From: an uncultured Bacilli bacterium
Lineage (GTDB): Bacteria > Bacillota_I > Bacilli_A > RF39 > UBA660
Length of the DNA stretch: 33,763 bases
Reading direction: 5' to 3'
Assembly: GCA_947626565.1 (NCBI GenBank)
Contig: CANQSQ010000011.1
Span: 1-33,763 of the forward strand
Each line of letters starts with the position of its first letter. The stretch's first letter is position 1. The notes beneath the pieces are model-generated. The model saw nothing but the letters and a program-made list of their open reading frames with translations, did not search any database and was not told the DNA's origin. The position numbers and the translations under genes were made by a program. Shown here one piece after another: positions 15,018 to 27,022 of this stretch.

Positions 15018-15470
15018 TTATATAATTTTTTCTTGATTAGAGTTATTAATATAGTTTATTAAATCTGGATATTTTGTATCATAGGCATAACTTTGGGGAG
15101 CAGTAAAATTATACTTTTCTTTCAAATCCACTAAGGAAATTGGATTAGTTAATTTGTAGACATTTTTAATGTGGTATGCATATTTTGACTTCTTTAAACC
15201 ATTATTAAATTCAATGTTGCCTACACCAGGTTCTTCTATAATAGTTGGATATTCAATAATTCTATCAATGAATAAAATATATTTCAAACAACAAGTAGGA
15301 GATGGTTCATAAACATAAAGTTTATTAATATTTCTTCTAGGAATATATTTTCTAAATTCATAATTCTTTTCACCAGTTTCAATTAATTTTGTAAAATTAG
15401 GTTTAATACTTATAAAAATTCCTGAAGATGATTGAGCAATTAATAAATCTTTTTTATTTTTTGTGACCAT
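15018..15470 (-). CDS. ASCH/PUA-like domain protein
   Basis: 150 residues. The segment FISIKPNFTKLIETGEKNYE followed by FRKYIP matches the ligand-binding start of ASCH-like (PUA fold) proteins, with a conserved Lys/Glu/Arg set. These domains are predicted to bind RNA or modified nucleosides. It overlaps the ABC-F gene by 17 bases with no clear ribosome binding site, so its translation is probably coupled to ABC-F. The last cluster gene; a second ASCH domain occurs in the kinase fusion at 21091-22134. The substrate is unknown. Confidence 0.65.
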   Translation of the reverse strand: MVTKNKKDLLIAQSSSGIFISIKPNFTKLIETGEKNYEFRKYIPRRNINKLYVYEPSPTCCLKYILFIDRIIEYPTIIEEPGVGNIEFNNGLKKSKYAYHIKNVYKLTNPISLVDLKEKYNFTAPQSYAYDTKYPDLINYINNSNQEKII

Positions 15471-17118
15471 TTTTTGTATAATTTAATTTTTTTACTTTTT
15501 GTTCTTTTAAATAATCATAATTACCAATATATCTATCAATTTGTTCATCATTGATTTCAAATGTATTTTGGGCTAGTTTGTTAATAAAATATCTGTCATG
15601 AGAAATAAATAGTAATGTTCCATTATACTCCTTTAATGCTTCTTCTAACATTTCTTTAGTATCTATATCAATATGATTTGTTGGTTCGTCGAGTATTAAA
15701 AAATTGGCATTTTTTTGAATTAACTCAAATAATTTTAAGCGAACTTTTTCTCCACCTGATAATGATTTAACCTTTTTAAAAACATTATCTTCATAGAATA
15801 AGAATTTGGCTAAACTAGCTCTCAGATGTGTTTCAGTTCCATTATAGAACTTTCTAGCTGTGTCTAAGACAGTAGCTTCTTCATCTTCAAAATGTATTTC
15901 TTGTGGCAAATAACCAATTAACACATTACTTCCTAATTTAATTTGTCCGTCTAATAATTCAGCATCTGACATATCTAATATCATTTTGATTAAGGTAGAT
16001 TTGCCACTACCATTTTTTCCCATTAGGCAATCTTTCTCACCGAAAGTAATGTGCATATTAGCACCATCAAATAATACTTTGTCACCAATTATGGCACATA
16101 AATTTTCTATGACTAAAACGTCTTTGCCACTTCTTTTACTAATTTGAAAATCTAGTGGAATTTCTTTTTTCTCTTCAGGTTTATCTAATAATTCTAATTT
16201 ATCTAATCTTTTTTTAATACTAGCAGCACGTTTAAAAAAGGCTTCTCCACCAGGGAAGGCTAATCTTCCAAACTCTTGTAGTTTTTTTATAGAAGCTTTC
16301 ATAGCAGCAATTTGTTTTTGTTGATCTTTAAAATCCTCAAACTCAGCCATTATTCTTCTTTCATTTTCTTCTAAGTAATAAGAATAATTACCAAAAAAGA
16401 TTTCTGATTTTCCTCGATCAATTAATACAGTTTTATTGGTTACTTGATCTAAAAAATATCTATCATGAGAACTTATCAAAATACTACCTTTATAATTTTT
16501 TAAATACTCTTCTAACCATTCTAAAGTATTAATATCTAGATGGTTTGTTGGTTCATCCAATAATAAAATTGATGGTTCACTTAATATAAGTCTAGCAAAA
16601 GAGACAATAGTTTTTTCACCACCTGATAATGTAGAAAATTTCCTATCCAGCATTTTATCAGATATTTTAAAACCATTGCATACTTTGTTTACATCAGATT
16701 CAAATCTATAACCACCTATTTTTTCAAATAGTTCCTGCAATTCACCATATGTTTTTAATAAACTTTCTAATTGTTCGGGATTAGCTGTGGCCATTTTTTC
16801 CTCTAAATTTCTTAGTTTAGATTCTATTTCTAATACTTTTGCTTTCCCTTGAATAATTATTTCTCTTACAGTTAAATCATTATTGTATTTGGGTGGCATT
16901 TGGGATAAGAAACCAATTGTAGCACCTTTTCTAATTGATATTTGCCCTGAATTAGGACTTTCTTCTCCTGTTATAAGTTTAAAAATTGTCGTTTTTCCTG
17001 AACCATTAGGGCCAATTAAAGATACTCTTTCACCTGTATTTAGTTCTAAATCAAAACCATTTAAGACATTTTTAAAGCCAAAATTTTTTACAATATTATT
17101 TAAACTTAATTCTGTCAT
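15454..17118 (-). CDS. ABC-F family ATPase (possible ribosome-protection/self-resistance protein)
   Basis: 554 residues with two ABC domains: Walker A GPNGSGKTT and GKNGSGKST, signatures LSGGEKTIVSF and LSGGEKVRLKL, Walker B LLLDEPTNHLD and LILDEPTNHID, and catalytic Glu after each. No membrane segments, and a charged inter-domain linker (about residues 240-320) that would reach the ribosomal P/E site: the ABC-F architecture. Members either tune translation or dislodge antibiotics from the ribosome; which applies cannot be settled by eye. The ATG at 17118 was chosen because AGGGGTGAT lies just upstream. It has its own consensus promoter inside the cluster, as expected for a resistance gene. 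Confidence 0.9.
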   Translation of the reverse strand: MTELSLNNIVKNFGFKNVLNGFDLELNTGERVSLIGPNGSGKTTIFKLITGEESPNSGQISIRKGATIGFLSQMPPKYNNDLTVREIIIQGKAKVLEIESKLRNLEEKMATANPEQLESLLKTYGELQELFEKIGGYRFESDVNKVCNGFKISDKMLDRKFSTLSGGEKTIVSFARLILSEPSILLLDEPTNHLDINTLEWLEEYLKNYKGSILISSHDRYFLDQVTNKTVLIDRGKSEIFFGNYSYYLEENERRIMAEFEDFKDQQKQIAAMKASIKKLQEFGRLAFPGGEAFFKRAASIKKRLDKLELLDKPEEKKEIPLDFQISKRSGKDVLVIENLCAIIGDKVLFDGANMHITFGEKDCLMGKNGSGKSTLIKMILDMSDAELLDGQIKLGSNVLIGYLPQEIHFEDEEATVLDTARKFYNGTETHLRASLAKFLFYEDNVFKKVKSLSGGEKVRLKLFELIQKNANFLILDEPTNHIDIDTKEMLEEALKEYNGTLLFISHDRYFINKLAQNTFEINDEQIDRYIGNYDYLKEQKVKKLNYTKNGHKK

Positions 17119-17142
17119 ATTATCACCCCTATTGCATTGTTT

Positions 17143-17170
17143 ATTATACACTAAATTGGTTAAATGTCAA
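17143..17170 (-). promoter_or_regulatory. Consensus sigma-A promoter for ABC-F and ASCH genes
   Basis: Minus strand: perfect TTGACA (17165-17170), 16-base spacer, perfect TATAAT (17143-17148). It overlaps the last codons of mazG. The predicted leader is only about 20 bases, too short for the attenuator found ahead of many ABC-F resistance genes, so expression is probably constitutive. Confidence 0.8.
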
Positions 17171-17459
17171 TTTTTACATTGACTCCATCCACCTTTTTAT
17201 ATACTCTATTTTTATTTATTTCCATCTTATTTTTTATTTCTATTTCTAAATCAAAACCTAGTAATTCAGAAATTCCTAGCAAGTAAATTGCAACATCTGC
17301 TAGTTCTTCACCTAAATCAGGTTTCTTTTTTCGATATGCTTCATAAGCTTCTGCAACCTCTCCATAAAGTAAACAAAACTCTTTAGGTATATCAGTTGTA
17401 TTAAAGCCATGATTAATTTTATTTTGAATTATTGCTTCCTGAGTTTTTTTTATATTCAT
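17160..17459 (-). CDS. MazG-type nucleotide pyrophosphohydrolase
   Basis: 99 residues. It has the MazG metal motif LLYGEVAEAYEAYRKK (EExxE-like) followed by LGEELADVAIYLLGISELLG. MazG enzymes hydrolyse nucleoside triphosphates to the monophosphate plus pyrophosphate; family members of this size act on NTPs or dNTPs. Its ATG overlaps the stop of the synthetase-like gene (4 bases). Two genes upstream is an N-glycosidase of a family that acts on monophosphates, so MazG could supply its substrate (inference). Confidence 0.82.
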   Translation of the reverse strand: MNIKKTQEAIIQNKINHGFNTTDIPKEFCLLYGEVAEAYEAYRKKKPDLGEELADVAIYLLGISELLGFDLEIEIKNKMEINKNRVYKKVDGVNVKIDI

Positions 17460-18541
17460 TTTCTTCCTCTTTCCTCAAATAACTTAATAAAATAATATAC
17501 TGAATAATTTCTAAATAATCTATAAGGTTCATTTAACCATAACATAGTTTCATCCATTATAACATCTAGTCCTGCTATACCAAACTTTTCTTTTAAAAAT
17601 GAATAATTAATCACGTATTTTGGTAAATCTGAATATGCTCCTTCTTTTACATATAAGCTTTTTGATAGCTTTGCCCCAGACCAATCCAATATTTGCGGAC
17701 AATACAATATCATTGGTAGCATATCAGCTTTATAACCTAAAATAGAAGCAATTTTATATAATAATTCTTCCTGATAGAAGCCAGCATAGTCTCCACCTGT
17801 TATTCTAATTATTTCATAGTCATAGTTACTACTTTCACTAATAATTCCATATATAATAGCTCTTACTAAATTTCTCAATGGTGTATTATATTCAACTCTA
17901 TTACTATTTTTTATATAGTTGACAATATATTCACCATGCTCAGGACATATGGATTTAATAATATCATTTTCTATAATAGTGTTAACTCCTTCTTTATCAA
18001 CCAGTCCACATTTGGGACATGTACATCTAATTCTTAATCTACCTTTATCAGGATCAAGCATATACCTAATCTCATCTTGTTTAGATACAATATTTTTTAA
18101 AATAGTTTTTATTTCTTTTTGACTATTAAATGCATTTTGATTTCTAACACTATAACTAATGTTGTTTTTTTGACTAAAATAAGTTAATATTTCTTGAAAG
18201 TCTTTCATGGCATCTGTCATTTTATTAGAATCTTTTAGATCCTTTTGATATTTTATTCCATTTATTTCGACTGTTTTGCTTGGAGCAGTATCTACTACTT
18301 CAAAGAGAACACTAACTTCTTTATCACAACGGTTTTCTTTAATCATTTTGGCAAGGGAAAAGGCCAGTGAAAAGACACATAATGTTCCAAAATGGGGTGA
18401 AGAATTTGGTTGTGCTCCTACACTTATAACAATTTTTTTCTTTTTTGATTTGCGCAATATATAATTTACAATATCATGCTCAAAAACATAAGATGCCCCA
18501 CCTAAAGGGTGGTACACTTGAAAATCACATTTTAATTCCAT
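17456..18541 (-). CDS. Class I aminoacyl-tRNA synthetase-like protein lacking an anticodon-binding domain
   Basis: 361 residues. It contains a HIGH-type motif PNSSPHFGTL (His50), a zinc-ribbon-like insertion (Cys173, 175, 178, 199), GGDYAGFYQEE (249-259) and a KMSKS-type motif GAKLSKS (291-295). The arrangement recalls the class I lysyl-tRNA synthetase catalytic core, yet the protein stops about 65 residues after KLSKS, with no room for an anticodon-binding domain. It should form an aminoacyl-adenylate and may load a carrier, small molecule or tRNA. Good ribosome binding site (GGAGG). It sits between mazG (overlap) and the N-glycosidase gene (2-base gap). The amino acid is unknown. Confidence 0.78.
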   Translation of the reverse strand: MELKCDFQVYHPLGGASYVFEHDIVNYILRKSKKKKIVISVGAQPNSSPHFGTLCVFSLAFSLAKMIKENRCDKEVSVLFEVVDTAPSKTVEINGIKYQKDLKDSNKMTDAMKDFQEILTYFSQKNNISYSVRNQNAFNSQKEIKTILKNIVSKQDEIRYMLDPDKGRLRIRCTCPKCGLVDKEGVNTIIENDIIKSICPEHGEYIVNYIKNSNRVEYNTPLRNLVRAIIYGIISESSNYDYEIIRITGGDYAGFYQEELLYKIASILGYKADMLPMILYCPQILDWSGAKLSKSLYVKEGAYSDLPKYVINYSFLKEKFGIAGLDVIMDETMLWLNEPYRLFRNYSVYYFIKLFEERGRK

Positions 18542-18543
18542 TA

Positions 18544-18990
18544 TTATCCTCCAAAATATGTATTTATCTCGTTTAATATTTGATTTTCTATATTTTTATA
18601 ACCTTTTTTGGTATCAATAGCAACTTTTACAGCCGGTGTAATAGTATCTATAAATCTAATTAATTCTGATTGATGATAATTTTTATCAATAAAAATAAGT
18701 ATTTTTTTATTAGCTGAACTAGCCCAACCTATTTCGACAGAAACGCCTTGCGAATCTTCGGGAAAAGCAACTATTAAATCAGCTTCATTGACTTTAGCAA
18801 AATCTATTTTTGTACAAACATCACCTGAGCCCGCTGTTTTATCTAATCCATATGCTTCTTTCTTTAATGGATAGTAAGTTTTGCCATAATTACATAATAA
18901 TTTATAAACATTATCCATAGTTTCCGTATAATCTTTATTCATTCCATTTCTTACATACTTTGATATTGGACTAGCTAAATATATTTTCAC
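18544..18990 (-). CDS. Nucleoside 2-deoxyribosyltransferase-family N-glycosidase (RCL/MilB-like)
   Basis: 148 residues. The start MKIYLASPIS and the segment NEADLIVAFPEDSQGVSVEI followed by GWASS are hallmarks of the family, with Glu86 the likely nucleophile. The S-x-GV-x-x-E-x-G-x-A form (rather than D-x-GT) is closer, as I recall the family, to the RCL/DNPH1 and MilB/BlsM enzymes that hydrolyse nucleoside monophosphates to free base and sugar phosphate. The start is GTG, with GGAGG 6 bases upstream. An ATG one base earlier runs directly into a stop. It lies between the glycosyltransferase fusion and the synthetase-like gene. Confidence 0.75.
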   Translation of the reverse strand: MKIYLASPISKYVRNGMNKDYTETMDNVYKLLCNYGKTYYPLKKEAYGLDKTAGSGDVCTKIDFAKVNEADLIVAFPEDSQGVSVEIGWASSANKKILIFIDKNYHQSELIRFIDTITPAVKVAIDTKKGYKNIENQILNEINTYFGG

Positions 18991-18991
18991 A

Positions 18992-21091
18992 TTATTCCTC
19001 CATTACCTTTTTTATATTATCTATTACTTGTAAAGTTCCATCATAATTAATATCAATACTTTTGGTATTTGATACATAGTCTTTATTTAAAACACTTTTT
19101 AAATATCTTTTAAATTTTTCTTTATCACTATAATTATTCATTTTTTTAATATTATCATTTATTATTTCTATTACAGCATGTTCATCTTTATCTAAATATT
19201 TCTTTAATCCAACTAAACTCAAACTACTATTATTCCAAGTAATTTCTTTATAAAAGTCAAATATTTTTTTACCATAGTCAATATTATAAAATTGGCTTAT
19301 ATTTTGAGGTGGCAAAAAAATTACTTTATTAACTATACTTCTACTTTCTAATATAGTAGTTAACCCCGGACTGGTAATAAACATTTTGGCATTTTGGATA
19401 TACTCAAAAAAAGTATTTTGAGGTAAATTTTTAACAACAACATTTTGATAGTCTTTAAAATATTCCTTTAAATCAATAGCGGCTTTAGAAGAAGTCGTTA
19501 TAATTATCTTGGTGTTACTGTAAATATCAACAATGCTTTTTACGACAACATCTACATAATCAAGTCCCTTAGTTGTTGGAGAATGCAAGCCTCCAATATT
19601 TATTAAAATAAATTCTTCTGATTCTAGATGAGTAGATAAATTACTTCTATTAATATTTATAATAGGATTAACCCAAACTAAATTCTTTACTTTACTAAAT
19701 AGTTTATTTGATTCGTCTGATAGACCAATAGTTTTTTGAGCACAATAGCAATCAACATCATAGGGAATTTTGCCAGTTTTAGCATCTTCAAGACTCCACA
19801 TAAATGGTAAACTATCTACATATATGACCTTAACATTCAATTCTAAGAGCAAACGAGCCATTTTATTTTTAAGTACTACTAAAGCATATTTAATATTATA
19901 TTTATCTATAAACTTTTTTAGGGTATCTTTGTCCATCGTAAAACAATTATCAATAAAAATTTGTTTATCATTAAATACATTTATATCAAACTCTTCACCG
20001 GCAGCAAACCAGTTAAAATCATTTTTACTGGCTTCTACAATAGCACTTAATTTCCCAACTGGTCCTAAGCCAAAGCAACTAGTAACAGCAAGAATATTTT
20101 TTTTCTTATTAAATACCTCTTTGATGGATTTGTCATTTAAAAAATTGGTATAGTTTTTTAAATCCCATTTTTTGCGATTATTTTCTAAGTTCTTAATAAC
20201 TTTCATATCACCAAGTATCATATCGTATCTGTTAACTCTACCTGTTTCTATCATGTCTTTGGCTAAACCAGGTCCACCATACAAATCCATATATTCTGTA
20301 TTTTTATAATGATTATATAAATCACTAATTAACATGTAAGAACCTGGAGAATATTTTTTATATTGCTCTTTATACGAATTTTTTAAGACATGAATTTTAT
20401 TATTATATTTAGCTTCTATTCTATATGAAACTATATCATTTGTATCTTTCATATAAGAAACAGCAATATTAGCAACACCTGATTCTACTAAAGATGAATA
20501 ATATATAAGTTGTTCCTTTTTAGCTAACATATCCTGCTTAGCTAAATGTTTCCAACTCTCACTTTCAATTTCTGTTATAATTTTACTTGGATTTATCTTA
20601 GTATAATATTTAATGTATAATTTATTTTCGAACTTTTTGACATTTTTATTAGAGTAATGAACTCTATTGCTACTTAATACTTTATCGATTATATTATCAA
20701 TCTTAGTATAATTACATATTGAAGTATATAATCTATCGTAAGTATATAAATCATTTTTTAAAAACTTATAAAAATTTGAGTCTTCATATACTAATGAAAA
20801 ATATAATGTTTTGTTTAAATAATTCTTAATATTATTTAAAAATTTTAAATATTTCTTTGTCGTAGCACCATTACTTACAATTGGCTCTATATTTAACGGG
20901 CATTCATAAACATTGTCGTCTTTTTTTACTAATACTGTTAGCATATTATTTTCAATAAATGTCATTGCACTTTTATTTGATAAGTAAATAGCGTAAATAT
21001 TTTCATATGTTTGTTGAAAATTACTTATATTTAAGCTTCTAATTATTTTTTCTACTTCACCTAATTTTTCAATATCACTTATTACAATCAT
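18992..21091 (-). CDS. Fusion of GNAT (FemAB/CelD-like) acyltransferase and GT-B glycosyltransferase
   Basis: 699 residues. Residues 1 to about 315 form a GNAT-type region with the CelD/FemAB-like core: HLAKQDMLAKKEQLIYY, then SPGSYMLISDLYNHYKN and YMDLYGGPG. Residues from about 335 (NILAVTSCFGLGPVGKLSAI) to the end are a GT-B glycosyltransferase, with a late donor-binding region around ITSPGLTTILESRSI, as in MurG/MGT-like enzymes. Such a protein could attach a sugar and then acylate or aminoacylate it. The stop/start junction with the kinase gene shares one base. In the cluster context the GT half could play the part of BlsD/MilC, which joins cytosine to a UDP sugar; this is inference. Confidence 0.75.
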   Translation of the reverse strand: MIVISDIEKLGEVEKIIRSLNISNFQQTYENIYAIYLSNKSAMTFIENNMLTVLVKKDDNVYECPLNIEPIVSNGATTKKYLKFLNNIKNYLNKTLYFSLVYEDSNFYKFLKNDLYTYDRLYTSICNYTKIDNIIDKVLSSNRVHYSNKNVKKFENKLYIKYYTKINPSKIITEIESESWKHLAKQDMLAKKEQLIYYSSLVESGVANIAVSYMKDTNDIVSYRIEAKYNNKIHVLKNSYKEQYKKYSPGSYMLISDLYNHYKNTEYMDLYGGPGLAKDMIETGRVNRYDMILGDMKVIKNLENNRKKWDLKNYTNFLNDKSIKEVFNKKKNILAVTSCFGLGPVGKLSAIVEASKNDFNWFAAGEEFDINVFNDKQIFIDNCFTMDKDTLKKFIDKYNIKYALVVLKNKMARLLLELNVKVIYVDSLPFMWSLEDAKTGKIPYDVDCYCAQKTIGLSDESNKLFSKVKNLVWVNPIININRSNLSTHLESEEFILINIGGLHSPTTKGLDYVDVVVKSIVDIYSNTKIIITTSSKAAIDLKEYFKDYQNVVVKNLPQNTFFEYIQNAKMFITSPGLTTILESRSIVNKVIFLPPQNISQFYNIDYGKKIFDFYKEITWNNSSLSLVGLKKYLDKDEHAVIEIINDNIKKMNNYSDKEKFKRYLKSVLNKDYVSNTKSIDINYDGTLQVIDNIKKVMEE

Positions 21092-22134
21092 TAAAACAGC
21101 ACCTTATCTATTATATCCATCCATTTCATAGCTTTTTCATCTATTTCAGATAAACCATAACTTTCTAAAAAAGCCTTAAAATAATCCATTTTATTATTTC
21201 TAATAAAACTCTTTCTTAAATAATATAAGTCAAAATATTTAGTGGATATACTAACATCTCCTAAATCAATTAAACTTACTTCGTTATTATCATCTATTAA
21301 TATATTCGGCAAACTATAATCACCATGTACTAATACAGTATCAGTTGGTTTATTATTCTTCAAAAATTCAAGGATACTTTTCTTGTTCATGTCGGGGTAT
21401 ATTTCTAGGATAGTTGGTAAAATTATATCTATTTTGTCTATAGCTATTTTTAATAAGTTATCAACATTATTATTAGTAAAAGGACAATTGGTAATATCAA
21501 TACTATGTATTTGTTTTAGATTTTTACCTACTAAGGGAGCAAAATTTTCTATTTTATGAGCCGATAATCCCGCTTTTTTTTCTCTTAAGTAATACTGATA
21601 ATTATCTAATTCCTTAAAATAATATACTTTTGGAACATTTAGTTTACCTTCTAACCATTTGTTTCTTTCATACTCATCTTTTAAATCATTTCTACTAGTT
21701 AAATATTGAATTTTTAAAATAGCATTAGTACCATCCTTCAATTTTAATTCATAAACTTCACTAGAACTATGACCTATTGTATTTTTAGTAAGGGAAGATA
21801 AATCAATTAGTTTTAGTAATTCAGGAGGTAATTCAGCACTTAATGGCTCTTTATTATCATATTTTATTCTATATACTATAATATTTTTTAAATCTTTATA
21901 ATAATCTTTAGCTTCTTCTTTACTTTTAAAATTACCAAATAATTCAAAAGAAATTAGATTAAAACAATCATCTAAATTATTATATTTGTATTTAATGGTT
22001 ATTTCAACTTTTATATTTTCTGATTTACTTTCTAACAAGACAAAATCTTTATTATTAAAACTATCATCGTCAGTAATTATATATACTTGCCTACCATTTT
22101 TTATATTAGTTAATTCTTTATTTTTTACCTTCAT
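21091..22134 (-). CDS. ASCH domain fused to APH-type phosphotransferase
   Basis: 347 residues. Residues 1 to about 95 look like an ASCH domain, ending with LFGNFKSKEEAKDYYKDLKN. From about residue 110 a kinase of the aminoglycoside/choline phosphotransferase fold follows: nucleotide loop IGHSSSEVYELKL, Lys in AILKIQY, the catalytic loop LVHGDYSLPNILI (Brenner motif HGDxxxxN) and the metal Asp in VSLIDLGDVS. APH enzymes phosphorylate hydroxyls of antibiotics or small molecules. Inside this cluster it could be a tailoring kinase or a self-protection enzyme, with the ASCH domain recognising the nucleoside-like substrate. The start lies 17 bases inside the FemAB-like gene. Confidence 0.78.
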   Translation of the reverse strand: MKVKNKELTNIKNGRQVYIITDDDSFNNKDFVLLESKSENIKVEITIKYKYNNLDDCFNLISFELFGNFKSKEEAKDYYKDLKNIIVYRIKYDNKEPLSAELPPELLKLIDLSSLTKNTIGHSSSEVYELKLKDGTNAILKIQYLTSRNDLKDEYERNKWLEGKLNVPKVYYFKELDNYQYYLREKKAGLSAHKIENFAPLVGKNLKQIHSIDITNCPFTNNNVDNLLKIAIDKIDIILPTILEIYPDMNKKSILEFLKNNKPTDTVLVHGDYSLPNILIDDNNEVSLIDLGDVSISTKYFDLYYLRKSFIRNNKMDYFKAFLESYGLSEIDEKAMKWMDIIDKVLF

Positions 22135-23053
22135 ATTCTTTTATCCTTCCATCAATATTCATACTTCTATTAATTAAGTTATAAAATTTATCTTTAGATT
22201 TGGCTTCAATTATATATGGATAATTTATTATATTTACATTAAAACTAGAAAAGAAATCATCTATTTCATCTATAACACTACCCTCAAAATCAAAATATTT
22301 TATCCTGATATTATCAAATAAATATTCATTAGCTCTTATTATAAGTAAAGGAATAATACCTCTTATTGTTTTATCTTGATAAGAATGTAATAAATATGAC
22401 CAATCTTTATCATATATACAAATTATACTAGCTTTAACTTTACCATCAACAAGACCTTTAATTACTATACCTTTATGATTAGCAATTAATTTTTTAGCTA
22501 AATTGCTTCTTTTAATAACTTCTTCTTTATCCCCTTTAATAGCTGAATCAAAATCAAAATTATGATAATCTTGGTCTATAATAACCTCTACTGTTTTCAT
22601 GGCATTTCTAATATGATTTCTTAATTTAGCTGGTACACTATCTAAAGTCATTTTCTTATCAGTTACATGAGTATGCCTCATTTCAACAAAGCCACCCTCA
22701 CTTTGAATTGCAGATATCATTTTAAAGGAAGGATGTAACGGAATAAAGCAGTAATCATACTTATTAAACAAATAATTAAACATTATTTTTAATATTTTTT
22801 TCTGATTATAATTATTCTCCTTATTTATAAATATGGGACTTATGTAGGGAAAAAATCTATACTCTCTTCTGATTCCATTATTATCAATTGGTATTAAAAA
22901 GACAGCTAATGGACAATCATTTTTTACTACTTTAATAATTTCTTTATTAGAATAAATATCTATGGCTTCTTGGTCGGCATATATTGGAATGTCTATATTC
23001 TTCTTTTTTAAAATTTCTAAATATTCATCTTTACTAATACTTTCTATTATCAT
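22118..23053 (-). CDS. FemAB-like GNAT-fold acyltransferase
   Basis: 311 residues. The second half has the FemAB/CelD acetyltransferase_6 pattern: KLRNHIRNAMKT, then VKASIICIYDKDWSYLLHSY, GIIPLLIIRANEYLFD and YFDFEGS. Classical FemAB proteins transfer amino acids from aminoacyl-tRNA to peptidoglycan; others acylate sugars. With an aminoacyl-tRNA-synthetase-like protein in the same operon, aminoacyl transfer to the pathway product is an attractive possibility. It overlaps genes on both sides (4 bases with the aminotransferase, 17 with the kinase). Confidence 0.75.
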   Translation of the reverse strand: MIIESISKDEYLEILKKKNIDIPIYADQEAIDIYSNKEIIKVVKNDCPLAVFLIPIDNNGIRREYRFFPYISPIFINKENNYNQKKILKIMFNYLFNKYDYCFIPLHPSFKMISAIQSEGGFVEMRHTHVTDKKMTLDSVPAKLRNHIRNAMKTVEVIIDQDYHNFDFDSAIKGDKEEVIKRSNLAKKLIANHKGIVIKGLVDGKVKASIICIYDKDWSYLLHSYQDKTIRGIIPLLIIRANEYLFDNIRIKYFDFEGSVIDEIDDFFSSFNVNIINYPYIIEAKSKDKFYNLINRSMNIDGRIKEYEGKK

Positions 23054-24204
23054 AATAAATATCCCTTATTCTTAATAGTTTGAATTAAACTAGCTATATT
23101 TGCTTCATCAGTACCATTTAATATTGGAGGAATAGAAATTACTAACATTTTTTCAATTAATTCTTTTGTATAGATACATTCCTTATTTTTTAAATCTTTA
23201 GAAGTTAATTTATATTTTTTAAATAATTCATTATCATAATATAATGATGACCACATATTTCTAAATTCAATATCATTATCTTTTCCCATATCAATTACTT
23301 TATCTTTAAACTTTTTATCATTTAAAATAATGATAATATTCATACCAGTATCTCCACTAGCATCTTTACTTGTTAATATGTTATTAATATTACTGATTTT
23401 TTGCATTATATTTTCTCTGGACTTTCTTTGCTTAGAAATTATCGTATCTAGTTTTTCTAACTGAGCATACAATACAGCAGCACACAAATTGTTCATTCGA
23501 TCATTTTCACCAAATAAAGCTTCAGCACTATCCCAAGATGGAAATCTATTTCTAGTTGATCCCATATCTGTATAATTACGCATTCTATTAAACATTAATT
23601 CATTATTTGTAACAACACAGCCTCCTTCACCACAGGTTATTTGTTTAAATTGTTGAAAGCTATAAACACCAATATCTCCAAAAGTTCCGGTGTACTTATC
23701 TTTAAATTTAGCCCCAAACGCTTGGCAAGCATCTTCTATTAAAACAATACCATTTTTTTCACATATTCTTTTTACCTTAGTTAAGTCAAAGGCTCTTCCT
23801 TGAAAATGAACAACTACTAGAGCCTTACATCCTAATTTAATTTCCTTTTCTAAATCTTCTAAATTAACTCCATAATTTAAGTCAACTTCTATTGGTATAG
23901 GAACTGCTCCAACGGCTATAGCAGCTAAAGCAGTTGCTAAAAATGTATAAGAACTTATTAATACTCTATCACCCTTTTCAACATTAGCACCTATAAATGC
24001 ACTTTTTAACGATGAAGTGCCATTAGTTGTCATTAGACAATAGTTAGTTCCTACTAAAGACTTGATTTTCTCTTCACACATAGATGTATATGGATAGGGA
24101 GTTCTGGAATATCTAAATATTCTTCTCGCATCAATTACATTACTTAAATATTTTTTTTCTTGTTCATCAAATAACAAACTACCATATTCATTGGGATTTA
24201 TCAT
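23050..24204 (-). CDS. DegT/DnrJ/EryC1-family PLP-dependent sugar aminotransferase
   Basis: 384 residues, the family's usual length. Recognised are TTNGTSSLKSAF (phosphate cup), the Asp in VLIEDACQAFGAKF, and the Schiff-base Lys in YSFQQFKQITCGEGGCVVTN. The SFQQ-x-K-x-x-T-x-GEGG form is that of glutamine-dependent aminotransferases of aminocyclitol and nucleoside-antibiotic pathways (StsC/BtrR type, as I recall). It should convert a keto-sugar to an amino-sugar. It directly follows the radical SAM gene (13-base gap) and overlaps the FemAB-like gene. Confidence 0.88.
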   Translation of the reverse strand: MINPNEYGSLLFDEQEKKYLSNVIDARRIFRYSRTPYPYTSMCEEKIKSLVGTNYCLMTTNGTSSLKSAFIGANVEKGDRVLISSYTFLATALAAIAVGAVPIPIEVDLNYGVNLEDLEKEIKLGCKALVVVHFQGRAFDLTKVKRICEKNGIVLIEDACQAFGAKFKDKYTGTFGDIGVYSFQQFKQITCGEGGCVVTNNELMFNRMRNYTDMGSTRNRFPSWDSAEALFGENDRMNNLCAAVLYAQLEKLDTIISKQRKSRENIMQKISNINNILTSKDASGDTGMNIIIILNDKKFKDKVIDMGKDNDIEFRNMWSSLYYDNELFKKYKLTSKDLKNKECIYTKELIEKMLVISIPPILNGTDEANIASLIQTIKNKGYLL

Positions 24205-24217
24205 TTTATTACCACCT

Positions 24218-25165
24218 CTAATATAATATTTCTTCTTTATCCATTATTTCTGGATGGTCATTAATATAAATATTTAATGGTTCACACTTACAATTATAAT
24301 TATTTTCTTTTAACCATAAGCGTATTTTTTCACATACTTCTTCTATGTCACCACTTAAATCAAAAGGTATTTCCTTTAATCTATGAGCTGCACAATTACA
24401 TGGAATTAATATATCCTTATCTGGTATATAAAATCTCACATTATCAACCACTTTACATTGACCATTAATTTTCAATCTAGAGTTATTATCAAAAGTATCA
24501 GCAATTTCTTCATCACTAGTACCAGCAAAATTTTTAGAATAACCTAAAAATTTAATTTTAGTAGAGGCTTTTACCTTATCAACAAAGTCTAGGTAATGTT
24601 TCTTACTATTTTCATCCCATAAATTATCCTTATATTTAATAGGTATTATGGACCACTGGTCTACACCTAAACTTACTAATAAATCATACATATTACTAAG
24701 ATCATGTATATTTTTACCACTTACTACTGTATTAATTCTTATAACAATGTTGTTACTTTTTAATTTGTTTATACCTTTAATAATATTGTCAAAACAACCT
24801 TTAAAATTTCTTAAACTATCATGAATATTGCTACAAGATCCATCTAAACTAATAATACATTCGTCTAGATTACTATCTATAAGCTTATCAGCATACCTAG
24901 GTAATAAATAACCATTGGTAATTATTGAAGTTTTTACTCCTATTTGTTTGGCTTTAATTAAAAATTCAATTATATTTTTATGTAATAAAGGTTCACCACC
25001 TGTAAACCTAATCATCTTATAATTATGATTTTTCATATGTTTTAATATTTTATCATATTGTTCAGCACTTATATTAATAGCGTTAGTAGTACCAGCAAAA
25101 TGACACATAAAACAACGAGAATTACAATTTTCTGATACTCTTATATACATAATTTTAGGATTCAT
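24218..25165 (-). CDS. Radical SAM enzyme
   Basis: 315 residues. The iron-sulfur motif is CNSRCFMC (Cys14, 18, 21), followed by FTGGEPLLH and ISLDGSC, the MoaA/PqqE-like core. Further Cys in the C-terminal part (GQCKVV, CNCAAH, CKCEP) suggest a SPASM/twitch-like auxiliary cluster. Substrates of this branch range from peptides to sugars and nucleosides. The neighbours (two PLP enzymes, glycosyltransferase) favour a sugar or nucleoside substrate, as for BlsE/MilG, which decarboxylate cytosylglucuronic acid. Overlaps the second DegT gene by 11 bases. Confidence 0.88.
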   Translation of the reverse strand: MNPKIMYIRVSENCNSRCFMCHFAGTTNAINISAEQYDKILKHMKNHNYKMIRFTGGEPLLHKNIIEFLIKAKQIGVKTSIITNGYLLPRYADKLIDSNLDECIISLDGSCSNIHDSLRNFKGCFDNIIKGINKLKSNNIVIRINTVVSGKNIHDLSNMYDLLVSLGVDQWSIIPIKYKDNLWDENSKKHYLDFVDKVKASTKIKFLGYSKNFAGTSDEEIADTFDNNSRLKINGQCKVVDNVRFYIPDKDILIPCNCAAHRLKEIPFDLSGDIEEVCEKIRLWLKENNYNCKCEPLNIYINDHPEIMDKEEILY

Positions 25166-26099
25166 AATATTTCCTCATTTCAATTTCAAATTTTCTTAAA
25201 TTTAGATAATTATTATTCGTTTTTAATAATAAACATTTTTCTATTTTTTTATTTCCAATTATTTTGATACCAATTTTCTTAACTAAGTTTATATCATCTA
25301 ACTTTTTTTTGTATTCTTTTTGATAGTTAATTTTACATTTTTCGAGAATAGTTATAATATTGTCATATTCAATTTCATCTATATAAATTGGAAAGCGATG
25401 ATAGCTTGGAAAGGAATTATTTTCTTCTATTAATTTAATAAAAGAATATTTCTCTAGGATTTTGTTAAAAAGAAGAGCATTTTTTCTTTGCTTAGTAACT
25501 TTTTTGTTGGCTTTTTTAATTATTTTTTTATAATTAATTGCTAAGGGATAATAATATTCTAAAAGATTCGCATTACTATTTCTACATTCTCTAGTTTTTA
25601 TATCGAAATTACTAATAAAGTTATTATTAGACATTATTATGCCACCAATGCCATTGGATAATGGTTTACTACTTCCTAGAGAGGATATAATATAATCACT
25701 ATTTTCTCCAATATGTCTGTTATTTAATTTAATATTCCATGACTGAGAGATATCTTCAATAATAATTAAATTTTTTATTTTTTCTATCTCTTGTTCATAA
25801 CCGTACTGATGAACTGCAATAAAAACTTTTATTTGTTCTTTTTTTACTATTTCTCTTACCTCTTTTTTACTAAGTGTTATACCATTGCTAGGGATTGCTA
25901 TAATTGGAAGCAAACCAGCATTTAATATAGCATGTAAAATACTATAACATACAACATTAGTAATCAACACTTTGTCATTTTTAGCTAATTTTAAACTTTT
26001 AAGAATTCCTTCAATAGCCAGAGTTCCAGAATATACAGATAAAAGATACTTTTTATTATACTTAGCTAAAATTATATTTTCATTGTTCACTGATATCAC
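25155..26099 (-). CDS. Short DegT-family PLP-dependent protein
   Basis: 314 residues, about 60 shorter than normal family members. It keeps the fold landmarks: SGTLAIEGILKSL, the Asp in LIIIEDISQSW and a Lys at the Schiff-base position in SSLGSSKPLSNGIGG. The C-terminal substrate domain is reduced and Lys-rich. It could be a second aminotransferase, a dehydratase-like PLP enzyme or a partner subunit of the first DegT protein. The start overlaps the PHP gene by 20 bases, so the two are coupled. Confidence 0.72.
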   Translation of the reverse strand: MISVNNENIILAKYNKKYLLSVYSGTLAIEGILKSLKLAKNDKVLITNVVCYSILHAILNAGLLPIIAIPSNGITLSKKEVREIVKKEQIKVFIAVHQYGYEQEIEKIKNLIIIEDISQSWNIKLNNRHIGENSDYIISSLGSSKPLSNGIGGIIMSNNNFISNFDIKTRECRNSNANLLEYYYPLAINYKKIIKKANKKVTKQRKNALLFNKILEKYSFIKLIEENNSFPSYHRFPIYIDEIEYDNIITILEKCKINYQKEYKKKLDDINLVKKIGIKIIGNKKIEKCLLLKTNNNYLNLRKFEIEMRKYYES

Positions 26100-26952
26100 C
26101 CAAGACCTTTTTCTCTTTGATTAATTTTTTTACTAATAATGGCTCATAATCTTGAGGAAATTTTATATTAGGATCACCAACACCACTAGCATATTTAAAA
26201 CTATGAAAATCACTGCCACCAGTTTCATACAAATCATATTTTATGGCTAAACTATGTATATAATCTCTAGCATTTTTATTTGCTTCAATATGATATGTCT
26301 CTAATCCATCTAATCCTAAATCTCTCAAATACATAACCAAAGTTTGTAGTTCTTTTTTCGTAATATCACATTTTTGAGGATGAGCAAAGACAGAATAACC
26401 ATGGCATGAATGGATTAATTTAATCATATCTTCAACACTCTCGTTATATTTATTATAAATTGGTTTATTACTTAGCAAATATTCTTTCAGTAATTCTAAT
26501 TGTTCTTCATTTATAAAGGTTCTTATATGATTTAAGATATTTTTATATAGCCAGCCATATTTAGTATAATTAAAATTATGAAAATATTCAGCATTTAAAA
26601 AAGAAAATTTTTTTATTAAATCTTCTAAATATTCTTTATTGTCATTGAAACGTCTGATATATAATTTTTGCAATACTTGATTTATTCTTTTATCTTTAAT
26701 CTTATAACCATATCCTAATAAATGAATCTTGGTTTTTCTACCTAAATAATATGTATCTGTAGAAAACTCAACTCCAGGGATTACCAATATATCTTTTTTT
26801 AAAGGCATATTTTGATATTCAATTAATCCAGAAATAGTATCATGATCAGTTATAGATATGATTTGAACATTATTTTCAATGGCATTATTAACCAATTCAT
26901 TCACTGTTAGAATTCCATCCGAATGAACTGTATGGGTATGTAAATCTATCAT
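26080..26952 (-). CDS. PHP-domain metal-dependent phosphoesterase
   Basis: 290 residues. Metal-binding motifs in order: DLHTHTVHSDG (residues 3-13), ITDHDT, PGVEFS, IHLLGYG, FAHPQK and GSDFHS. The layout is that of the TrpH/YciV-type PHP phosphoesterases, which remove phosphate from nucleotide or sugar phosphates. It is the first gene of the 26952-15018 operon, behind a near-consensus promoter and a GGGTGAT ribosome binding site. A role in dephosphorylating a pathway intermediate is plausible. Confidence 0.88.
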   Translation of the reverse strand: MIDLHTHTVHSDGILTVNELVNNAIENNVQIISITDHDTISGLIEYQNMPLKKDILVIPGVEFSTDTYYLGRKTKIHLLGYGYKIKDKRINQVLQKLYIRRFNDNKEYLEDLIKKFSFLNAEYFHNFNYTKYGWLYKNILNHIRTFINEEQLELLKEYLLSNKPIYNKYNESVEDMIKLIHSCHGYSVFAHPQKCDITKKELQTLVMYLRDLGLDGLETYHIEANKNARDYIHSLAIKYDLYETGGSDFHSFKYASGVGDPNIKFPQDYEPLLVKKLIKEKKVLGDISEQ

Positions 26953-26993: not shown

Positions 26994-27022
26994 ATAATAC
27001 TATAAAGCATTAAAACTGTCAA
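26994..27022 (-). promoter_or_regulatory. Sigma-A promoter of the biosynthetic-type operon
   Basis: Minus strand: perfect -35 TTGACA (27017-27022), 17-base spacer, -10 TATTAT (26994-26999). The predicted leader of about 35 bases carries only the ribosome binding site. Confidence 0.75.

Follow-up and report, generated by a model that had tools for sequence, protein, structure and literature searches.

The locus raises the question of what the catalytic core of an aminoacyl-tRNA synthetase (aaRS) does when it stands alone, without an anticodon-binding domain, inside a biosynthetic unit. The window (the whole stretch of 33,763 nucleotides analysed here) comes from an uncultured Bacilli bacterium whose draft genome has an estimated contamination of 6%; the same cluster was found independently in two other genomes. 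Twelve genes keep their order in all three (window, rabbit gut and rumen), the core being gene 9. In the window ten genes form a tightly packed unit with gaps of -20 to +13 bp, where the core is again ninth. The features are as follows.

15018-15470, minus strand: ASCH-fold partner, 150 aa, with the GxKxxExR octapeptide GEKNYEFR and a match to 5guq/5gus
15454-17112, minus strand: ABC-F ribosomal-protection protein (NF000355, 437 bits, cut-off 380); likely start ATG 17112, GTG 17151 possible
17143-17170, minus strand: promoter-like site of the ABC-F and ASCH genes, TTGACA-16-TATAAT (12/12), conserved in the three genomes
17160-17459, minus strand: MazG-like NTP pyrophosphohydrolase (MazG-like E 6.4e-5, just below the cut-off)
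17456-18541, minus strand: stand-alone class I LysRS-like catalytic core, 361 aa, with HFGTL, KLSKS and a CxxC...CxxH zinc site
18544-18990, minus strand: BlsM-like protein of the nucleoside 2-deoxyribosyltransferase family (PF05014 above cut-off; homologues in blasticidin-type clusters)
18992-21091, minus strand: fusion of a FemAB/GNAT-like N-terminal half (gougerotin-type GNAT homology) and a BlsD-like cytosylglucuronic acid (CGA) synthase C-terminal half (TIGR04467)
21091-22134, minus strand: APH(3')-like kinase with an N-terminal extension of ~100 residues
22118-23053, minus strand: second FemAB-like protein, homologue of an unannotated GNAT-like ORF in the gougerotin-type cluster
23050-24204, minus strand: DegT/DnrJ aminotransferase 1 (profile match; homologues in known clusters)
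24218-25165, minus strand: radical SAM protein, BlsE/CGA decarboxylase-like (CxxxCxxC; TIGR04466)
25155-26099, minus strand: DegT/DnrJ aminotransferase-like protein 2 (homologue in a Streptomyces microflavus locus)
26080-26952, minus strand: PHP phosphoesterase, 3',5'-nucleoside bisphosphate phosphatase-like
26994-27022, minus strand: promoter-like site of the 10-gene biosynthetic unit, TTGACA-17-TATTAT, conserved in the rabbit-gut contig (L003) and similar in the rumen contig (L004)

The core gene has the coordinates that a preliminary description of this DNA had given, but lies on the minus strand, and the cut-down catalytic core with a zinc insertion reported there is present in all its parts. 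HFGTL occupies residues 50-54 (H50-F-G-T53-L) and KLSKS residues 291-295 (A290-K-L-S-K-S295), the zinc ligands are C175, C178, C199 and H202 (Cys3His), and the chain ends 66 residues beyond KLSKS with the anticodon-binding domain absent. Across the family alignment HFGT (50-53) and KLSKS are invariant or nearly so, and the zinc ligands and catalytic motifs are kept unchanged from Bacilli to actinophages. With a dN/dS of 0.07-0.13 the gene is among the most constrained in the cluster and is under strong purifying selection; as the same protein recurs in independent genomes and plasmids at such values, the open reading frame is not a chance one.

The only relevant Pfam family touched by the core was class I LysRS (PF01921), below threshold with 16.5 bits against a cut-off of 27 (E 0.004); a Macrococcus relative reached E 9e-5 with the same family. 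An NCBIfam scan gave no relevant match, and a PDB sequence search matched no relevant chain. Profile comparison was marginal (LysRS over 160 columns at 28% probability, GluRS over 43 columns at 24%, no match to the CysRS profile), hence a sequence phylogeny against other synthetases is unusable as evidence.

The AlphaFold2 model, built on a 15-row alignment, has a pLDDT of 79 and a pTM of 0.83, its poor regions being the first 20 residues and the KMSKS loop (294-309). Its best Foldseek match was the class I LysRS of P. horikoshii (LysK, 1irx; 2.9e-10), and VIA-align ranked 1irx (Z 17.4) before BshC (4wbd, 15.3), CysRS (14.1) and MshC (8hfn, 13.2), in line with the class I LysRS layout suggested earlier. 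The match to 1irx spans 284 residues, and residues 3-329 of its 507 exhaust the whole model, so that the core is, as modelled, a LysRS-type core without the C-terminal alpha-helix cage that binds the anticodon. The preliminary description had named clustering with nucleotidyltransferases as a refuting outcome; that identity is not supported, the first 50 hits by structure all being class I synthetases or related ligases. HIGH and KMSKS motifs on a Rossmann-type fold place the protein in the class I aminoacyl-tRNA synthetase superfamily, as a real and unusual enzyme of presumed activity. A 'lysine--tRNA ligase' of the haloarchaeal virus HGTV-1 (BFVD R4T703), only 375 aa long, was also a structural match, and is perhaps another free-standing LysRS core.

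The core is nevertheless not a LysRS: PF01921 stays below threshold, a pocket position is changed, the anticodon-binding domain that LysK has is missing, and the host has its own class II LysRS. This separate full-length enzyme (541 bits) and the missing domain led us to reject a full class I LysRS or housekeeping role, and the separate enzyme makes the non-ribosomal use proposed earlier likely; class I LysRS was not found in the phylum genome sample. The loop before HIGH changes from GITPSGYVHVGN in LysRS to GAQPNSSPHFGT in the core (ITPSGYVHVGN against AQPNSSPHFGT), LysRS T29 and S31 becoming Gln44 and Asn46, both invariant in the family. As T29 is a lysine-pocket position, its replacement argues against simple lysine specificity, and one conserved non-lysine amino acid is a reasonable guess. 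Nothing singles out lysine, arginine or a beta-amino acid, the substrates first put forward.

MshC and BshC offer another parallel. They ligate cysteine to GlcN-inositol and GlcN-malate in mycothiol and bacillithiol synthesis, and like the core they are free-standing class I-like folds without an anticodon domain, which activate an amino acid and then join it to an amino sugar. They are CysRS-derived or separate families, however, with no detectable sequence similarity to the core, and we know of no ASCH partner for either. Synthetase domains that have been put to use in RNA modification or natural-product synthesis (Glu-Q-RS, VlmL, SbzA and AcmF; PMC9437257, PMC12945691) derive from GluRS, SerRS, IleRS and AlaRS, whereas the present core is LysRS-like. 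Recruitment of synthetase cores outside translation is thus already known, and what is new here is the ASCH link and the nucleoside context.

The neighbours of the core match the CGA pathway. The CGA synthase half matched TIGR04467 (BlsD) with E 1.4e-48 and 166 bits against an equivalog cut-off of 300, and the radical SAM protein matched TIGR04466 (BlsE) with E 1e-50 and 173 bits against a cut-off of 400. Counterparts of the radical SAM protein, the first DegT protein, CGA synthase and BlsM were found in Kitasatospora and Streptomyces bls-type loci, and those of five genes (both DegT and both FemAB-like proteins, CGA synthase) in the S. microflavus locus. By its content (an MFS exporter, LOG and an asparagine synthase-like protein) we take the latter locus to be of the gougerotin type. 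Judged by these homologies the window cluster is a hybrid, combining a blasticidin trait (BlsE) with gougerotin ones (the FemAB-like pair, the DegT pair and CGA synthase), and looks like a gene set for a blasticidin/gougerotin-like nucleoside antibiotic. In its CGA synthase-like, BlsE-like radical SAM, DegT and BlsM-like proteins the window resembles the blasticidin S, mildiomycin and gougerotin clusters, and the FemAB-like and DegT pairs recur in the gougerotin-type locus; the window differs in its Bacillota gut host, the fusion of BlsD with a FemAB-like half and the APH-like kinase. The core and its ASCH partner were not found in the clusters of these types that we inspected. An ABC-F-like gene also adjoins the blasticidin-type CGA synthase in Kitasatospora.

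The operon with two GNAT/FemAB-like proteins of the preliminary description stands, the two proteins being 22118-23053 and the N-terminal half of 18992-21091, although only one has even a sub-threshold Pfam match. This is PF13480 (FemAB/GNAT) at 0.0065 for the fusion protein, not above the cut-off; no Pfam FemAB/GNAT profile matched 22118-23053, which is 24% identical over 293 aa (3e-31) to the gougerotin-type GNAT-like ORF. With no profile match above cut-off, we call both proteins FemAB-like only. As for the other members, the MazG-like protein probably converts CTP to CMP, the BlsM-like protein is probably a CMP hydrolase yielding cytosine, and ABC-F and the APH-like kinase are, from their families, probable self-resistance and self-protection proteins. 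The consensus promoter alone groups transcription of the ASCH gene with ABC-F and not with the core. No dedicated tRNA, tRNA-like or known RNA element was found near the core. In contrast to the Streptomyces counterparts, no exporter is recognisable in the conserved cluster (15018-26952), whose product may be exported by a transporter of the host or act intracellularly.

A second, different CGA-type nucleoside cluster lies in a related gut Bacilli genome (G151 contig 12, L061:1-11032). Its BlsM, APH, ABC-F and BlsE proteins are 39%, 37%, 60% and 46% identical to those of the window, CGA synthase is also present, and it has in addition a Ham1-like NTPase, a UDP-glucose dehydrogenase, an AMP-binding ligase, a LysR regulator and two small GNATs. 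The G151 genome gave no match to the aaRS family, nor was an ASCH gene found in the sequenced L061, which ends inside the cluster. As ABC-F occurs here without core and ASCH, the ASCH gene tracks the core rather than ABC-F or the nucleoside. The AMP-binding ligase might stand in for the core, but this is no more than a thought.

The ASCH partner, natural fusions of the two proteins, the spread on phages and plasmids and the cytosine peptidyl-nucleoside cluster were all absent from the preliminary description. The window protein at 15018-15470 belongs to the ASCH superfamily: its octapeptide fits the consensus G-X-K-X-X-[ETS]-X-R (PMC9599836), with K, E and R invariant in 5/5 relatives, and its profile (A3) matched the Z. 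mobilis ASCH structures 5gus/5guq with E 2.5e-11. This closest solved relative, ZmASCH (5GUQ), binds nucleic acid and has ssRNA nuclease activity (PMC5615036). The core is paired with an ASCH-fold gene in every sampled lineage except Pantoea, where no ASCH gene adjoins the homologue. In Macrococcus the gene that directly follows the core overlaps it by 8 bp and is 43% identical to the window ASCH; an ASCH gene adjoins the core on Streptomyces and Amycolatopsis plasmids (after it in the Streptomyces loci inspected), in G034 of the same bacterial family (just upstream) and in 12/12 viral loci (again after the core), with an ATGA overlap in most of the viral and Streptomyces plasmid cases. On phage contigs L025 and L026 the two form one uninterrupted frame. 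The PHROGs phrog_35625 ('tRNA synthetase') and phrog_19935 ('RNA-binding protein') of Streptomyces phages Picard and Mojorita are the same family and its ASCH partner, there without a biosynthetic cluster, unlike the window pair. Two ASCH partner types exist, with no profile match to each other beyond the octapeptide, and in all partners Glu replaces the nucleophilic Thr24 of YqfB, an ASCH-type N4-acylcytosine amidohydrolase with a Thr-Lys-Glu triad (PMC6972931), which argues against YqfB-type activity. Our literature search found no paper naming both an ASCH domain and an aminoacyl-tRNA synthetase.

The aaRS family is rare, patchy and often carried on mobile DNA. A scan of 395 genomes of the class and 392 of the phylum found it in the bacterium's own genome only, and viral scans with Bacilli-type and Pantoea queries gave no match. 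The closest copies are in two independent gut genomes (rabbit gut, 90% identity; rumen, 79%), followed by plasmid copies in Macrococcus (44%), the G034 copy (36%, with one in-frame stop), and plasmid copies in Pantoea (33%) and in Streptomyces, Amycolatopsis and Prauserella (24-27%); the family is further present in Picard, Mojorita and 12 IMG/VR contigs. In the family tree, where the G034 row is in a wrong frame and to be disregarded, the window core groups with Macrococcus (97/98).

The surroundings of these copies vary. In the rabbit-gut genome (L003:924-18706) the cluster sits between two pieces (924-1334 and 17876-18706) of one D-Ala-D-Ala carboxypeptidase gene; it carries a large serine recombinase (16258-17931) at its right end, and is apparently an integrated mobile element of roughly 16.5 kb. 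A Mob/Pre-like relaxase gene directly upstream of the rumen cluster (L004:247-1530) suggests mobility there, and a tRNA-Thr gene just upstream of the ASCH and aaRS pair of G034 (L002:636-709) is possibly an integration site. On Macrococcus plasmids (L008:3076-8045 and L009) a regulator, an MFS transporter, two ATP-grasp ligases, the core and ASCH make up a compact unit with the look of a small-molecule pathway. One run on the Pantoea plasmid (L010:11174-14954) holds a methyltransferase, the core, a LOG-like protein, a DMT transporter and a Ham1-like NTPase, sharing the base-supply logic (NTP to NMP to free base) of MazG and BlsM in the window. In actinophage contigs the aaRS is directly preceded by the gene of a small conserved protein of ~104 aa (L016:3612-3926, L022:3606-3917), the one copy scanned having no Pfam match, and NUDIX, HATPase, AAA_28 or HTH genes occur nearby.

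We favour, at what we judge to be evenly balanced chances, a reading where the core activates one amino acid in a cytosine peptidyl-nucleoside pathway, with transfer by way of an ASCH-held RNA and the FemAB-like proteins; its place inside the 10-gene unit speaks for this. From its motifs and fold, the core would use ATP to turn one particular amino acid into its aminoacyl-adenylate. Lacking an anticodon domain, it would work with the ASCH protein, whose PUA-like fold would most likely present the acceptor, probably an RNA 3' end. MazG and BlsM would yield cytosine, the BlsD-like half would couple it to UDP-glucuronate, the BlsE-like enzyme would decarboxylate the CGA-derived intermediate and the DegT enzymes would install amino groups. 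The two FemAB-like (GouJ/GouK-like) proteins would then form amide bonds between amino acid and amino sugar of the cytosine nucleoside, while ABC-F and the APH-like kinase would protect the producer's ribosomes and the intermediates. In the main variant the amino acid would be handed to the amino sugar directly, in the manner of MshC/BshC, and no RNA would take part.

Such transfer has precedents. Transferases of the FemABX type draw on aa-tRNA in several pathways (PMC12945691, PMC2922099); in this nucleoside class BlsK (PNAS 2021, as cited in PMC10691278) forms an amide in an aa-tRNA-dependent manner, and MilH is putatively aa-tRNA-dependent like BlsK (PMC11784345). GouK and GouJ were proposed on bioinformatic grounds to activate and attach the gougerotin amino acids (PMC12835213). 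The gougerotin-type cluster, however, has GouJ/K-like proteins without such an aaRS, so these proteins do not need one, and the pairs on phages and plasmids without nucleoside genes fit a self-sufficient function, e.g. protection, equally well.

Taken by itself, the direct route would have the core adenylate the amino acid and pass it straight to the sugar-nucleoside amino group with no RNA, ASCH binding the cytosine part. BshC and MshC rank high among the hits by structure, the amino-sugar acceptor class and the missing anticodon domain agree with it, YqfB-type ASCH proteins bind N4-acylcytosines (PMC6972931), and the Pantoea homologue also lies beside base-supply genes (Ham1 NTPase, LOG). 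We still find it rather unlikely, given that two FemAB-like amide-forming proteins are already in the cluster, that cytosine nucleoside genes are missing around the Macrococcus and phage copies, and that the ASCH partners have Glu for Thr24. We are similarly doubtful that core and ASCH are a protection module which aminoacylates a target or toxic molecule (e.g. tRNA, rRNA or an antibiotic), used in the window for self-immunity together with ABC-F and APH. The pair does stand alone on actinophages and plasmids without biosynthetic genes, and in the window ASCH has its promoter in common with ABC-F and scores against the candidate-defence model PDC-M11B of PADLOC (2.4e-16); but no PADLOC defence model matches the core, which lies inside the biosynthetic unit between BlsM and MazG, and the L061 cluster keeps ABC-F and APH without the pair. 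A LysRS paralogue that is degenerate or regulatory, and so without catalytic function, could account for the weak overall similarity to any LysRS and for the in-frame stop in G034, yet with catalytic motifs and zinc ligands all invariant from Bacilli to actinophages, and with the low dN/dS, we regard it as very improbable.

Going beyond the pathway role, we suggest tentatively, as a possibility we would sooner bet against, that core and ASCH are a new two-part aminoacyl transfer system, i.e. a split synthetase with ASCH as its RNA-binding part in trans or fused, spread by phages and plasmids and recruited in gut Bacilli for a nucleoside antibiotic, likewise new, of the blasticidin/gougerotin kind. 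With the pairs carried by phages and the naturally fused forms, the mechanism can be put to a direct test. If true, a LysRS-like core would join the few synthetase cores that have been recruited for uses outside translation, and an ASCH protein would act as the missing RNA-binding half of a synthetase. Further, uncultured gut Bacilli would be a source of a CGA-type peptidyl nucleoside antibiotic, a class that is a Streptomyces trait in the literature we found.
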